64,000 bases of DNA from NCBI GenBank assembly GCA_030149165.1, contig JASBRY010000002.1, forward strand, positions 1 to 64,000. Reading direction: 5' to 3'. Within the stretch, counting starts at the first letter, position 1. Each line of letters starts with the position of its first letter. Origin of the DNA: Phycisphaerales bacterium (GTDB taxonomy: Bacteria > Planctomycetota > Phycisphaerae > Phycisphaerales > UBA1924). The position numbers were made by a program, and so were the translations under genes. Shown here in pieces: positions 55,880 to 61,338 of this stretch. The notes beneath the pieces were generated by a model. It made no database searches. It saw only the letters and a list, made by a program, of their open reading frames with translations, and had not been told where the DNA came from.

Positions 55880-57310
55880 TCAGCGGATACTCAACCGAAT
55901 ATCGACTGTCCCAGATCCTTCACGCCAGACGGTCACATCTACGCTGTTGCCAGTGAGCAATCCGGCATCCGCGAGTAAAACAAGAAACTGACTGAGATCT
56001 TCGAATCGTTCTCCTTCTACTCTTCGGATTTCATCGCCAGCCTCCAAACCCGCCATTGAAGCAGGCATCCCCCTCCAGACTTGATTCACACGCACACCCT
56101 CGGCACTCCCGCTGAACAATGCACCAAGCTGCAACTGGATTGGTTGAGCCAATCTCTGTGCGAGTACTTCTGGTCGCATCTGACCGAGCGTGACTGAGAG
56201 TTCCAAAAACTCTCCGCTGCGATACACCTCGAGCGAGATAGGCTTGCCTGCTCGTTGTGAACTGATGAGCGACGACAGCGCCTCAGCGTTGGTCACTGGC
56301 GATCCCTGCACGCTCAGGATCACATCACTCGGAAGAACGCCCGCACGATCTGATGGGCCGTCGGTTTCAACACCAGTGATTCGGATCCCGAATCTCGACT
56401 CGCCATCCTCATTGACCACTTCAACGCGTCCCGAACGCGAGGAGTCGTACGAGATCCCCATGAACCCCCTGGAGACTGACCCGTGCTCGATGATCTGCGC
56501 CACGATGGGCTCAATAGTTCCGAGAGGGATCGCGAAAGAAATCCCAGCGGAGTCACCGCCGGAATCCTCTGGATTCGATCCGACCGTGCTTGCGGCGGTC
56601 GCGATCGCGACATTCATGCCAATCACTTGTCCATCGGTATTGACCAGTGGTCCACCAGAGTTGCCCGGATTCACAGCCGCATCCGTTTGAATGTAGTTGG
56701 TGTACCCTCCCACCAATCGCGCGCCTTGTGCCTGTCGGCCGAGTCCAGAAACGATCCCCTCCGACATTGAGAACTTGAATCCAAACGGAGAACCAAACGC
56801 GAACACGCGCTCGCCGACACGAGGGAGCCGTTGCGTAGCGCGCATCGCTGGGAATGTGGTGTGCGACCGATCGACCTCGATCACCGCGATGTCTGTATAA
56901 ATATCCGTCCCGATCACTCGACCTTCAACAACATCGCCGTTGTAGAACTCGATGGAGACTCGTTCCGCAGATTTGACCACATGCGCATTGGTGACCAGGT
57001 GTCCTTCAGAATCAAAGATCCAACCCGCTCCGCTGGAGTACGAACCGTAGTTCGATATTTCATCGCCACTGAACTCCGCTCTTGTTTCGATATGAACGAC
57101 ACTCGGCTCAATCGTGTCACCGATCGCTGAAACAGCGCGATCTATGCGACGCAGAATATCGTCATCAGCGAGCACATTGCGAGCAAGTGTGATCCGTGCC
57201 CCTTGTTGAGCGACGGCATAACGATCAAGCAATGAAGGAGCGAGAAAGACCAGCGTTGCCGTAACCAACAGGACGACCAATGCCGGGATAATCGAGACAA
57301 ACTTCCGCAT
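55880..57310 (-). CDS. HtrA/DegP-like S1C serine protease with two PDZ domains
   Basis: 476 residues. An N-terminal TM or signal segment (SIIPALVVLLVTATLVFL) is followed by a trypsin-like domain with catalytic His in VTNAHVVKSA (near residue 110), Asp in TDIAVIEVD and Ser in NPGNSGGPLVNTDG. Two PDZ domains follow: SRGFMGISYDSSRSG ... GVLPSDVILSVQGSPV, and a C-terminal one with VNQVWRGMPASMAGLEAGDE. It should act in the periplasm on damaged or regulatory proteins. ATG 57310 has TTGGAG upstream. It lies 45 bp after panB on the same strand. Confidence 0.92.
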   Translation of the reverse strand: MRKFVSIIPALVVLLVTATLVFLAPSLLDRYAVAQQGARITLARNVLADDDILRRIDRAVSAIGDTIEPSVVHIETRAEFSGDEISNYGSYSSGAGWIFDSEGHLVTNAHVVKSAERVSIEFYNGDVVEGRVIGTDIYTDIAVIEVDRSHTTFPAMRATQRLPRVGERVFAFGSPFGFKFSMSEGIVSGLGRQAQGARLVGGYTNYIQTDAAVNPGNSGGPLVNTDGQVIGMNVAIATAASTVGSNPEDSGGDSAGISFAIPLGTIEPIVAQIIEHGSVSRGFMGISYDSSRSGRVEVVNEDGESRFGIRITGVETDGPSDRAGVLPSDVILSVQGSPVTNAEALSSLISSQRAGKPISLEVYRSGEFLELSVTLGQMRPEVLAQRLAQPIQLQLGALFSGSAEGVRVNQVWRGMPASMAGLEAGDEIRRVEGERFEDLSQFLVLLADAGLLTGNSVDVTVWREGSGTVDIRLSIR

Positions 57311-57355
57311 GGTGGACTCCAATTCGCTCAGGCGGGAAGAAGGAACAGCTGCACA

Positions 57356-58276
57356 CTATGTATTCGGTTTCGTGGCATCCTTGGTGGCAGATTCTTTGGA
57401 GGTCGATCCAAGTTTTTCCGACTCACCCGCTCGCATCGAGTACCGCTGACCCCCGATAGACCCATCACGGACCCTCGAAACCCATTCTTTCCCAGCTCTC
57501 ATGATCTCTGGACCGATCGAGGAAACTGGTTCAGCGAATCTGGGGGGATGATCCGTGAGTCCAAGCAGATCATTCACCACGAGAATCTGTCCATCGCACG
57601 CCGTCCCGGCTCCGATCCCGATCACTGGGACTGATGCGATTTCCATGACGCGAGCGGTCACTTCATCGGGGACCGCTTCGATCAGCAACAGTACCGCGCC
57701 GGCGTCCTGTAGGGCTTGTGCATCCCGCACAACCTGCTCGAGCGAATCTGATGTCCGTCCCGCCGCGACTGGACCACCGGTCACAGAGCTCGTCTGAGGC
57801 TTGCACCCGACATGAGCACAGATTGGCACTCCAGCCCTGGTCAATCGATCAACAATCCCGGCTTGGGTCTCATCCGCTTCGAGCTTGATGACATCCGCCA
57901 TCCCCTCTGTCATGAATCGACCAGCATTGCCCATGGCTTCGTCCACCGATCGGTGATAGCTCATGAACGGCATATCCGCCATCACCAGCGTCCGAGGAGC
58001 GCCCCGCTTCACCGCGGCCGTCATCAGGATCGCGTACTCCATCGGCATGTCAATCGTCCGCTCAAAGCCGAGCATGACCTGAGCCGCGGAATCTCCCGCG
58101 AGCAGGACATGCACCCCCCCACGCTCAAGCCAGCGTGCTGTTGTGGCGTCATAGCACGCGAGACAGGCGAACGGATCGCCACGATGCTTCATCGCCTTGA
58201 GCGTTTTCAGTGTCACAGGATCCCGCATAGTGGGTTCTGTATTGTGGTCAGCTTGGTCATTTGGAGAGAGACTCAT
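57356..58276 (-). CDS. panB: 3-methyl-2-oxobutanoate hydroxymethyltransferase
   Basis: 306 residues, slightly long for PanB because both ends are extended. It makes ketopantoate from 2-oxoisovalerate and methylene-THF for pantothenate and CoA. Motifs: FACLACYDATTARWLER, LLAGDSAAQVMLGFERT, ADMPFMSYH, KLEADETQ, AHVGCKPQTSS (GHIGLTPQ region), LLLIEAVPDEV and VIGIGAGTACDGQILV. Catalytic Glu and metal-binding Asp residues are kept. ATG 58276 is chosen; ATG 58228, closer to the core domain (MRDPVTLKTLKAM), is an alternative. It is the first gene of the minus-strand run. Confidence 0.93.
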   Translation of the reverse strand: MSLSPNDQADHNTEPTMRDPVTLKTLKAMKHRGDPFACLACYDATTARWLERGGVHVLLAGDSAAQVMLGFERTIDMPMEYAILMTAAVKRGAPRTLVMADMPFMSYHRSVDEAMGNAGRFMTEGMADVIKLEADETQAGIVDRLTRAGVPICAHVGCKPQTSSVTGGPVAAGRTSDSLEQVVRDAQALQDAGAVLLLIEAVPDEVTARVMEIASVPVIGIGAGTACDGQILVVNDLLGLTDHPPRFAEPVSSIGPEIMRAGKEWVSRVRDGSIGGQRYSMRAGESEKLGSTSKESATKDATKPNT

Positions 58277-58344: not shown

Positions 58345-59343
58345 ATGACCCATTCAACCATGCTCCGCACACCAAATCTTGCTGATGACCAGATTCTCCG
58401 AGTTGTCGCCGGCCTCCGTCCATGTCGACAAGGCGGGCTTCGGCTTGAGTCCCAAGAACTCGGATCCAAGCACATCATCCACAACTATGGACACGGCGGG
58501 TGCGGGATCACCCTGTCTATGGGAACCGCGCACGCATGCGCCGATCTCATTGAAAAATCGACGAATCGCAATGATCCAATCGCCGTGCTAGGTGCCGGCG
58601 TGGTCGGACTGACCACAGCGAGAGAGCTCGCTTCGCGTGGTCACAAGGTCCGAATTTACGCAAAGCAATCCGGGATCGATACCCTCAGCGTCCTTGCCGG
58701 AGCGCTCTTCCTCCCCGTTGGTATCGAGTACGACCATCCTGATATTGGACAAGAGAAGTTCCTCGAGATTCTCTCCAAGTCCAAGCAATCCCTCGATGCT
58801 CTCGATCCCGAACGCTATGGCATTGACTCACTCCCAGTGTTTGAACCTGAATACGCACACGATCCCGACTTCCTCTTCACCAACGGCACTATCGCGCCTC
58901 CAGTGCACATCGACAAGCTCCCGCTCCCTGGTCCCCCTCGAAGTGGACGCACATTCGAGTCCATGTTTATCCATACTCCCAGATTCCTCAACGCGTTGAT
59001 CGATGATCTTCAATCATTGGATGTGGATCTCAAACAACACACGATGACCTCAGCCGACGACATCGAAAGACTGAGTGAAGAATCCATTGTCAACTGCATG
59101 GCGCTCGGCTCTCGCACGATCTTCAACGACACCGCGATGTATCCAGCACGCGGGGTGTTGGTGCACATGAAGCCGCAGGATCTTGGATACATCATCCACG
59201 ACGGATACAAATACATGTTCCCTCGTGAGGATGCACTCATCCTCGGCGGATGCTTCGACGAGCATGTCTGGGATGACACACCTGATCAAAAGATAGCCGA
59301 CGAGATCCTCTCGCATCACCGAAGATTCTTCGGCGTCGACTAG
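58345..59343 (+). CDS. D-amino-acid-oxidase-family flavoenzyme with circularly permuted domain order
   Basis: 332 residues. Residues about 18-70 hold what is normally the C-terminal end of DAO enzymes: VVAGLRPCRQGGLRLESQEL (substrate-binding Arg) and HNYGHGGCGITLSMGTA (FAD pyrophosphate contact). A ten-residue linker leads to the usual N-terminal FAD Rossmann motif, IAVLGAGVVGLTTARELASR, at about residue 79. The rest follows normal order: LSVLAGALFLPVG, SIVNCMALGSR, YPARGVLVHMK and MFPREDALILGGCF, ending just where GLRP would be expected. One open frame, no second motif copy, no frameshift seen. It should oxidise a D-amino acid or related amine using FAD; substrate unknown. ATG 58345 begins about 12 residues before the first family strand. 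Confidence 0.85.
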   Translation: MTHSTMLRTPNLADDQILRVVAGLRPCRQGGLRLESQELGSKHIIHNYGHGGCGITLSMGTAHACADLIEKSTNRNDPIAVLGAGVVGLTTARELASRGHKVRIYAKQSGIDTLSVLAGALFLPVGIEYDHPDIGQEKFLEILSKSKQSLDALDPERYGIDSLPVFEPEYAHDPDFLFTNGTIAPPVHIDKLPLPGPPRSGRTFESMFIHTPRFLNALIDDLQSLDVDLKQHTMTSADDIERLSEESIVNCMALGSRTIFNDTAMYPARGVLVHMKPQDLGYIIHDGYKYMFPREDALILGGCFDEHVWDDTPDQKIADEILSHHRRFFGVD

Positions 59344-59361: not shown

Positions 59362-61338
59362 ATGCCCATCCTGAGTGGTACCAATCTGACCCTCCAGTAC
59401 GGAGACGACCTCATCCTCGATGGGGTATCGCTGTCGATCGAACAGAGCGAACGAATCGGTATCGTTGGACGCAATGGATGCGGCAAATCCACACTCATCA
59501 AAATCCTCGCAGGGGTCCTTCCTCCCACCGACGGATCAGTATCCAGCGGCAAAGCGACCATCGGATACCTCCACCAGAATCCGGACCTCAACCCACAGCA
59601 CACACTCAAGGAAGCCGTCGCGAGCGCGTTCGATCACATCAAAGAGCTCAACGCAAGGCTCGAACAGATCTTCGAGGAGATGGGCAACGCCGACAAAGAC
59701 AACCTCGATCGACTCCTGAAAGAACAAACACGCATCGAGCATGAGATCGAAGCCAGTGGTGGTCTGGTCAACGACCACAAAGTTGATCAGATTCTGCATG
59801 GTTTGGGATTCACAGATGCTCAGTTCGGCATCAAAGTCCCTGATCTCTCAGGGGGTCAAAAAGCACGCGTCGCGTTGGGAAAGCTTCTGCTCCAAGATCC
59901 GTCCGTACTCCTGCTTGACGAACCCACCAATCACCTCGACATCCAGGGACGCGAATGGCTGGAAGTGTTCCTTCGTGAAGAGTTCAAAGGAGCCGTGGTC
60001 CTCATCAGTCACGATCGATACATGCTCGATCGCGTTGTCAATCGGATCGTTGAAGTCGAACATGCTCGATTGATTGAGTACCCAGGGAACTACGCCGCGT
60101 TCCGTAAGCAGCGCGCCGAGCGCCGGACAGTCCAGCTCCGCGCGTATGAGAAGCAACAAGCGGAGTTCAAACGCGAAGAAGCGTTCATCGCGCACTTCAA
60201 AGCCGGACAGCGCGCCAAGCAAGCTCGAGGCAGAGAATCAAGACTCAACCGCGCTAAAACACAAACCATCGAGCGCCCACTCGAGCTCGCGAGCCTTCGA
60301 CTCTCGCTCCCCAAAGCTCAGCGAGCGGGTGATATCGTCGTCGCCGCTCGATCGCTCTCGAAGAAGTACCCCAACGAGGACGGCGGCGACAAAGTCCTCT
60401 TCCATGACCTCGATATCCGCATCGAGCGTGGACAACGCTGGGGCGTCATTGGTCCCAACGGCGCTGGAAAGTCCACACTGATCCGTTGCATTCTCGGTGA
60501 GCAGGAAGCCGATCAAGGCACCGTGAAGCTCGGAACCAATCTGGATGTCGGTCACTTCACCCAAACCCACGACAATGTGGATATGTCCAAGACTGTGTTC
60601 CGACATATCCAAGACACTGTCAAAAAGAACACGGATGATCGCGTCACGCTTTCCGAGCTCGAAGCAAGGACCATAGCAGGCGCTTTCTTGTTCTCTGGAG
60701 ACGACCAACAACGCGAACTCCAATCCATGTCCGGCGGAGAGAAAGCAAGAGCCGTGCTCGCTGGATTGCTCGCGAGCGCCAAGAACCTGCTCGTGCTCGA
60801 CGAACCCACCAACCACCTCGACATCCCATCCGCGGAGCGTCTCGAAGAGACCTTCGCTCGCACGCATCACGATCCCAAAACCGGCAAGACCACCAGCGGC
60901 GCGTACGAGGGGACCGCGATCCTGATCTCGCATGATCGTGCTCTGATTGATGCCGTGTGCGATCACCTTATCATACTCGACGGGCATGGGAACGCCGAGA
61001 TCTTCGCAGGCACCTACACCGAGTGGCACGACCAACACCTCAGAGAGTCTATATCAAAGACCACTGCTCAGGATCAACCGAAACAGGCTGCTGAAAAACC
61101 GACCCAACAACCCAAGCCAGAAGCATTAGCGACCAAGTCCCGTTTTTCATGGATGCCGATCAACCAGATCGAGGAGCGGATGACAGACTTGGAGATTGAA
61201 CTCAACACGCTCGACGCTCAGCTCAACGATGTTGACATATGGAAAGACATCGAACACGCCAACGAGGTCACCGCAAAGCGGGACAGCGTGCGCTCGGAAC
61301 TCGACGAGCTCGAAGAGGAATGGCTACGCAAGTCATGA
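59362..61338 (+). CDS. ABC-F family ATPase (Uup-like)
   Basis: 658 residues with two ABC domains and no TM segment. First: Walker A GIVGRNGCGKST, signature LSGGQKARVAL, Walker B LLLDEPTNHLD. Then a linker rich in Lys, Arg and Gln (ERRTVQLRAYEKQQAEFKRE). Second: GVIGPNGAGKST, MSGGEKARAVLAGLL, LVLDEPTNHLD. The C-terminal coiled coil (from about residue 590, RFSWMPINQIEERMTDLE) is like that of Uup. ABC-F proteins act on ribosomes or, for Uup, have been linked to DNA-branch intermediates; the exact role is open. ATG 59362 follows the oxidase gene by 18 bp, possibly one transcript. Confidence 0.93.
   Translation: MPILSGTNLTLQYGDDLILDGVSLSIEQSERIGIVGRNGCGKSTLIKILAGVLPPTDGSVSSGKATIGYLHQNPDLNPQHTLKEAVASAFDHIKELNARLEQIFEEMGNADKDNLDRLLKEQTRIEHEIEASGGLVNDHKVDQILHGLGFTDAQFGIKVPDLSGGQKARVALGKLLLQDPSVLLLDEPTNHLDIQGREWLEVFLREEFKGAVVLISHDRYMLDRVVNRIVEVEHARLIEYPGNYAAFRKQRAERRTVQLRAYEKQQAEFKREEAFIAHFKAGQRAKQARGRESRLNRAKTQTIERPLELASLRLSLPKAQRAGDIVVAARSLSKKYPNEDGGDKVLFHDLDIRIERGQRWGVIGPNGAGKSTLIRCILGEQEADQGTVKLGTNLDVGHFTQTHDNVDMSKTVFRHIQDTVKKNTDDRVTLSELEARTIAGAFLFSGDDQQRELQSMSGGEKARAVLAGLLASAKNLLVLDEPTNHLDIPSAERLEETFARTHHDPKTGKTTSGAYEGTAILISHDRALIDAVCDHLIILDGHGNAEIFAGTYTEWHDQHLRESISKTTAQDQPKQAAEKPTQQPKPEALATKSRFSWMPINQIEERMTDLEIELNTLDAQLNDVDIWKDIEHANEVTAKRDSVRSELDELEEEWLRKS

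Follow-up and report, generated by a model that had tools for sequence, protein, structure and literature searches.

D-Amino-acid oxidase (DAAO, EC 1.4.3.3) and D-aspartate oxidase (DASPO, EC 1.4.3.1) follow the canonical order of the wider DAO family, in which the Rossmann block that binds flavin adenine dinucleotide (FAD) comes first, and the arginine of their GxRP motif binds the substrate carboxylate. The glycine oxidase ThiO (TIGR02352) shares the DAO-family fold and lacks the HNYGHGG motif. To our knowledge, it is uncommon for a whole enzyme to be circularly permuted in nature. The DNA considered here, referred to as the window, is a stretch of 64,000 nucleotides from a Phycisphaerales bacterium (Planctomycetota; assembly GCA_030149165.1, contig JASBRY010000002.1, positions 1 to 64,000), and it carries a DAAO-like gene in which the two blocks of the chain are swapped relative to DAAO and DASPO (PDB 6rkf, 1kif, 2du8, 7ct4). 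Many of its permuted relatives also bear a signal resembling those for twin-arginine translocation (Tat), and a putative amino-acid oxidase activity can be assigned to the family. As far as can be told, such a widespread family, many members of which carry export signals, is undescribed within the open-access literature searched; no description of a permuted DAAO was found there, which does not prove its absence from print, and the accessible part of PMC4699246 contains no occurrence of "permut". According to the accessible part of PMC13327496, a flavin-binding permutation relates the flavin reductase split barrel to the ferredoxin-reductase-like domain (Murzin 1998), but this case concerns a different fold from that of the DAO family.

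The window gene (58345-59343, forward strand) is an intact, uninterrupted frame of 332 residues, in which GLRP (residues 23-26) and HNYGHGG (46-52) precede the FAD motif VLGAGVVGLTTA (81-92). The sequence-only reading of this DNA had recognized the order of the motifs, though it placed the first two at about residues 28-62. As it had also stated, the protein stops after HHRRFFGVD with no GLRP following. The next open reading frame (ORF), at 59362, begins just 18 bases on, so no second GLRP block fits 3′ of the gene. Against PF01266, for which the curated cut-off is 27.9 bits, the whole protein scores 104 bits (E 1.6e-29), each block alone exceeds the cut-off (72 and 30.1 bits), and chance is excluded for the match of both blocks. 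The match does not form one collinear Rossmann-first stretch but two swapped ones, with residues 79-329 on profile positions 2-297 and residues 9-68 (58369-58548) on positions 297-353.

Rotation of the protein restores a single end-to-end alignment, both with PF01266 (positions 2-353 of 353, at 111.4 bits vs. 104 bits in two stretches natively) and with pig DAAO (2-326 on chain 3-332), with a nearly identical result for human DAAO. Together with the swapped blocks of the native form, this supports the main claim of the sequence-only reading, a natural circular permutation. In native order, a phmmer search against the PDB aligned residues 68-130 and 190-322 with 14-82 and 152-298 of the 7ct4 chain, and residues 16-72 with 319-375; residues 9-72 likewise match 267-333 of the pig DAAO chain (1dao). 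The gain in score on rotation was modest and not general (7ct4, 78.8 to 82.2 bits); the permutation is shown by the order of the blocks and not by the score. The confident predicted model of the native order places strands at residues 17-28, 33-39 and 42-48 and a helix at 51-72. The permuted-family profile matched 27 PDB sequences, and in none of them does the best stretch span both blocks; in the 17 that are DAAO/DASPO, it is the Rossmann/substrate block, close to the start of the chain. Tandem duplication followed by loss of the outer ends is a plausible route to this arrangement. A second copy of the normally C-terminal block (C-block), which the sequence-only reading had considered as a mark of normal order and which would also mark an intermediate of that route, occurs in none of the 154 ORFs holding a C-block, overlapping loci being counted repeatedly.

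Across 73 permuted members, the conserved Gly60 and the first Rossmann Gly are mostly 21 (29 members) or 23 residues apart (28 members; 57 of the 73 together), the window protein having 23 (G60 to G83). In canonical proteins, the tail past the equivalent Gly comprises 10-25 residues in 28 of 32 fitting the pattern, and at most 20 in 27 of these 28, while the nearest upstream Met lies 5-15 residues from the Rossmann Gly in 24. The old ends seem to have fused with hardly any additional sequence, if any. The same 73 members retain Arg25 without exception, and we take this residue to be the equivalent of the substrate-carboxylate Arg of GxRP in DAAO. Arg28 (72/73), G83 and G85 (both 73/73) and G88 (70/73) are similarly conserved, and HNYGHGG is invariant or nearly so. 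At the nucleotide level, differences at codon positions 1/2/3 between the window gene and two relatives number 33/14/71 over 287 codons (L030) and 90/47/192 over 332 codons (L031), an excess at position 3 as expected for a protein under purifying selection.

The search for homologues with the same order, proposed in the sequence-only reading, recovered permuted relatives in five phyla. Within the window's genus, a homologue was found in 20 of 21 genomes; the genome without one (G011) is 61% complete, and in another (G004) the gene is split across contig ends. The permuted gene is also present in one genome from another family of the same order (G057), and a canonical protein is found within the window's own family (G024). 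Outside the phylum, members were identified in an Acidobacteria bin, two Alphaproteobacteria and the named strain Cyclobacterium xiamenense (L048, Bacteroidota), and in plasmid-collection records of Niveispirillum, Bradyrhizobium, Kozakia, Rhizobium and Nonomuraea (Actinomycetota), some of them titled complete plasmids; the Nonomuraea record is 11.85 Mb long and labelled plasmid I. Where these records annotate the gene, it is as an FAD-dependent oxidoreductase, and two records carry no annotation. Among all loci fetched, the distinct ORFs holding both blocks comprise 76 with the C-terminal block first and 32 with the N-terminal block first. The census by profile A3 favours permuted finds because the profile was built from 21 permuted proteins, and it is rough, as every draw contains a centre genome picked for having the gene and only part of the first-look candidates in a genome received a score: in Planctomycetota, 5 of 294 genomes gave permuted and 7 canonical matches; in Acidobacteriota, 24 of 199 matched, 16 permuted and 8 of canonical type (four fetched, all confirmed canonical); in Pseudomonadota, 18 of 349 matched, all collinear across the junction and with no canonical match at the threshold of E ≤ 1e-15; among relatives of the Sphingomonadaceae genome, 16 of 118 matched, all collinear; and in Bacteroidota, 36 of 326 matched at E ≤ 1e-15, with three permuted among the fetched loci, including the divergent L090, the one exception among 18 otherwise canonical loci (L083-L100). 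One genome of the Acidobacteriota draw (G1063; L123, L161, L162) holds four permuted matches. No match to the permuted family was found in phages or in PHROGs, and the five matches in a viral structure library at E ≤ 0.001 bear names of general FAD oxidoreductases or unrelated proteins, with a TM score of at most 0.52.

Given the observed block order, relatives, conservation and predicted fold, we infer that the window protein is probably a permuted FAD enzyme of the DAAO/DASPO branch with a single ancestral permutation, an early history of Tat export and D-amino-acid chemistry. The last approximately 60 residues, comprising the substrate-arginine strand, the HNYGHGG loop and the final helix, have become the first 60 or so. 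The old C-terminal helix leads by a handful of linker residues directly to the opening strand of the Rossmann fold, and the new termini are located in the stretch ahead of the GLRP strand. One such event in an ancestral bacterial DAAO would have given rise to the permuted members, of which the ancestor or an early branch may have been exported via Tat, often as a lipoprotein, before the signal was lost in the window's Phycisphaerales clade (the window clade), where the enzyme would stay cytoplasmic. In catalysis, Arg25 would grip the substrate carboxylate while the flavin accepts a hydride from the alpha carbon of the D-amino acid; the presumed electron acceptor is either oxygen or a respiratory carrier.

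Export signals were sought with a strict pattern, twin Arg followed by an uncharged hydrophobic 12-mer no more than 95 residues upstream of the core, in the open frame 5′ of the core, for which the start codon is unproven. The 73 permuted and 32 canonical proteins scanned exclude near-duplicate loci and the partial L006 and L030. Of the 48 permuted members outside the window clade, 40 (including L025, L045-L048, L051, L053 and permuted loci from the range L059-L132) have a Tat-like signal ahead of the moved block, 26 of them with a lipobox-like pattern, itself loosely defined; L090 is among the loci with a Tat/lipobox-like signal. The pattern was found in none of the 25 window-clade members, including the window protein, and in none of the 32 canonical proteins. 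Among the eight members missed by the scan, the motif can be seen by eye in L061, L115 and L128, the upstream part of L117 is truncated, and L052, L054, L055 and L101 have none. In the trees, the Tat-bearing planctomycete members L025, L059, L060 and L062 (and L061 by eye) share a larger group with the window clade, in keeping with loss of the signal in that clade. The window protein is probably a cytoplasmic branch of a largely exported family. It has also been considered that permutation and export signal arose together, which is possible but rather less than probable: the swap would have released the N-terminus from its place at the first, buried strand of the Rossmann fold and so made a family of Tat-exported, often lipid-anchored, periplasmic amino-acid oxidases or dehydrogenases across at least five phyla, with a later return of the window clade to the cytoplasm. 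With these data, either of the two could have come first.

Phylogenetic trees were built from 105 rotated rows, from which an 88-row quick tree omits 17 near copies and 76-row trees omit 29 rows, mostly near copies but including the long rows L053_C, L090_P and L026_C. In the careful 76-row tree, permuted (52) and canonical (24) rows are parted at one branch, with support of 100/100, and the branch recurs in all (100%) of 200 bootstrap trees. The segment left unbroken in either order gives the same division when taken alone, so the split is not created by rotation. Canonical order is taken as ancestral because all 17 PDB-matched DAAO/DASPO sequences have it, as does the wider family. The trees thus favour one origin of the permuted order.

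Several points weigh against the reading of a single, early exported D-amino-acid oxidase family. A single origin presumes a root on the canonical side, and the very divergent Bacteroidota member L090 (G493; 149.2 bits), absent from the 76-row trees, could be a second permutation event. Tat signals were called by pattern and not by a trained predictor, and parsimony on the permuted rows takes three changes, with L061 and L115 set to Tat by eye, L117 omitted and L128 (set by eye) not in the tree, and does not settle whether the ancestor was exported. Position Tyr290, presumably in the active-site Tyr region of DAAO and DASPO, is H, S, N or another residue in 20 of 48 members outside the window clade. 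Rotation lowered some PDB scores (6rkf, 65.5 to 65.2 bits; 9vpf, 41.8 to 41.6 bits), and neighbouring genes reveal no common pathway. A repeated origin of the permuted fold, whose termini are close and need almost no linker, would accord with a joined length that requires no extra sequence and with the remoteness of L090 from the other permuted rows (end branch 2.57 in the 88-row tree). It is nevertheless unlikely given the single well-supported split, though this was obtained without L090_P, L026_C and L053_C, and given the 88-row tree, which retains all three rows and still takes only one change of order (Shimodaira-Hasegawa-like approximate likelihood ratio test, 90).

Judged from conserved residues, the permuted members may be D-amino-acid oxidases or dehydrogenases, and because Tyr290 differs outside the window clade, their substrates may vary. 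A cytochrome c gene follows the Kozakia member (L053), which would fit a dehydrogenase there. For the cytoplasmic window clade, an alternate proposal is that the enzyme provides dehydroglycine for thiamine synthesis in place of ThiO. The genome encodes ThiG (329.5 bits; C5:103444-104211), its ThiH score does not pass the cut-off (23.2 vs. 380 bits), its other PF01266 matches are two partial ones (profile 2-43 and 2-38), and ThiO is the best NCBIfam model for the window protein. However, that match lies far below its cut-off (70.4 vs. 250.8 bits) and in swapped order, the HNYGHGG motif is of the DAAO/DASPO type, and no PF01266 match is found on C5, the contig of ThiG. Moreover, none of 61 relatives passes the ThiO or ThiH cut-off; as some of them belong to genera that lack the permuted gene, the gap occurs independently of that gene. 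Both thresholds are demanding, with only 3 (ThiO) and 2 (ThiH) of 14 control genomes passing, and many relatives hold sub-threshold ThiO-like proteins of up to 150 bits. The presence of ThiG without ThiO or ThiH over cut-off is thus a weak hint of a glycine-oxidase role, and replacement of ThiO is unlikely. A degenerate or non-catalytic flavoprotein, to which the variable Tyr290 of other clades might point, is quite improbable in view of the near-invariance of Arg25, the FAD glycines and HNYGHGG and the concentration of differences at third codon positions. Although the source is a draft genome (11 contigs, 94% complete), an assembly or frameshift artefact that placed a C-terminal fragment before a normal DAO gene can be dismissed with near certainty, and misassembly is excluded, because independent assemblies repeat the same block order, within the genus and in five phyla, a named strain and complete-plasmid records, with no second C-block in any of the 154 ORFs.

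The positions of the gene, its parts and its neighbours are collected in Table 1. Within the window clade, the gene order with the HtrA-like protease, PanB and ABC-F genes is partly kept, with no clear functional link, and outside it few neighbours are common to the examined loci. A thiamine-pyrophosphate-dependent enzyme adjoins the permuted gene at L047, L052 and L054; in the latter two, on rhizobial plasmids, an FAD-binding oxidoreductase is also adjacent, with a berberine-like domain in L052. Peptidase or beta-lactamase-family hydrolases adjoin L053, L150 and L164 as single cases. The neighbourhood was rejected as a guide to function, and no pathway is claimed from it, with few neighbours shared and part of the adjacent same-strand genes checked in Pfam.

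Table 1. Positions in the window of the permuted gene, its parts and the adjacent genes.
Feature	Coordinates	Strand	Evidence
Permuted D-amino-acid-oxidase-like gene	58345..59343	+	332 aa, ATG to stop TAG; PF01266 E 1.6e-29
Moved block, residues 9-72 (GLRP strand, HNYGHGG motif, normally final helix)	58369..58560	+	PF01266 and pig DAAO match
Arg25 (GLRP) codon	58417..58419	+	R in 73/73 permuted members
Junction EKSTNRND, residues 70-77, old C- to old N-terminus	58552..58575	+	G60-to-G83 spacing 23 residues
Main block, residues 79-329 (Rossmann FAD-binding start and substrate domain)	58579..59331	+	
GxGxxG dinucleotide-binding motif, residues 83-88	58591..58608	+	G83, G85 73/73; G88 70/73 permuted members
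Tyr290 codon, aligned with active-site Tyr region of DAAO/DASPO	59212..59214	+	Y in 22/25 window-clade members, 28/48 others
HtrA-like protease (trypsin-like and PDZ domains)	55880..57322	-	PF13365, PF13180; homologue at 8/12 window-clade loci (BLAST)
Ketopantoate hydroxymethyltransferase (panB), divergent neighbour	57356..58228	-	PF02548 279.8 bits; homologue at 7/12 window-clade loci (BLAST)
ABC-F type ATPase, 18 bases downstream	59362..61338	+	PF00005 in two stretches, PF12848; homologue at 9/12 window-clade loci (BLAST)

A family of this kind readily escapes notice, because a family model gives swapped blocks a score but does not report that they are swapped. The permutation is conserved, occurs in several phyla and is under selection, and it offers dozens of natural permutants, along with normally ordered relatives, for the study of folding, FAD loading and the effects of a new N-terminus. 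The permuted family is also a lead to a group of amino-acid oxidases that seem to be exported.
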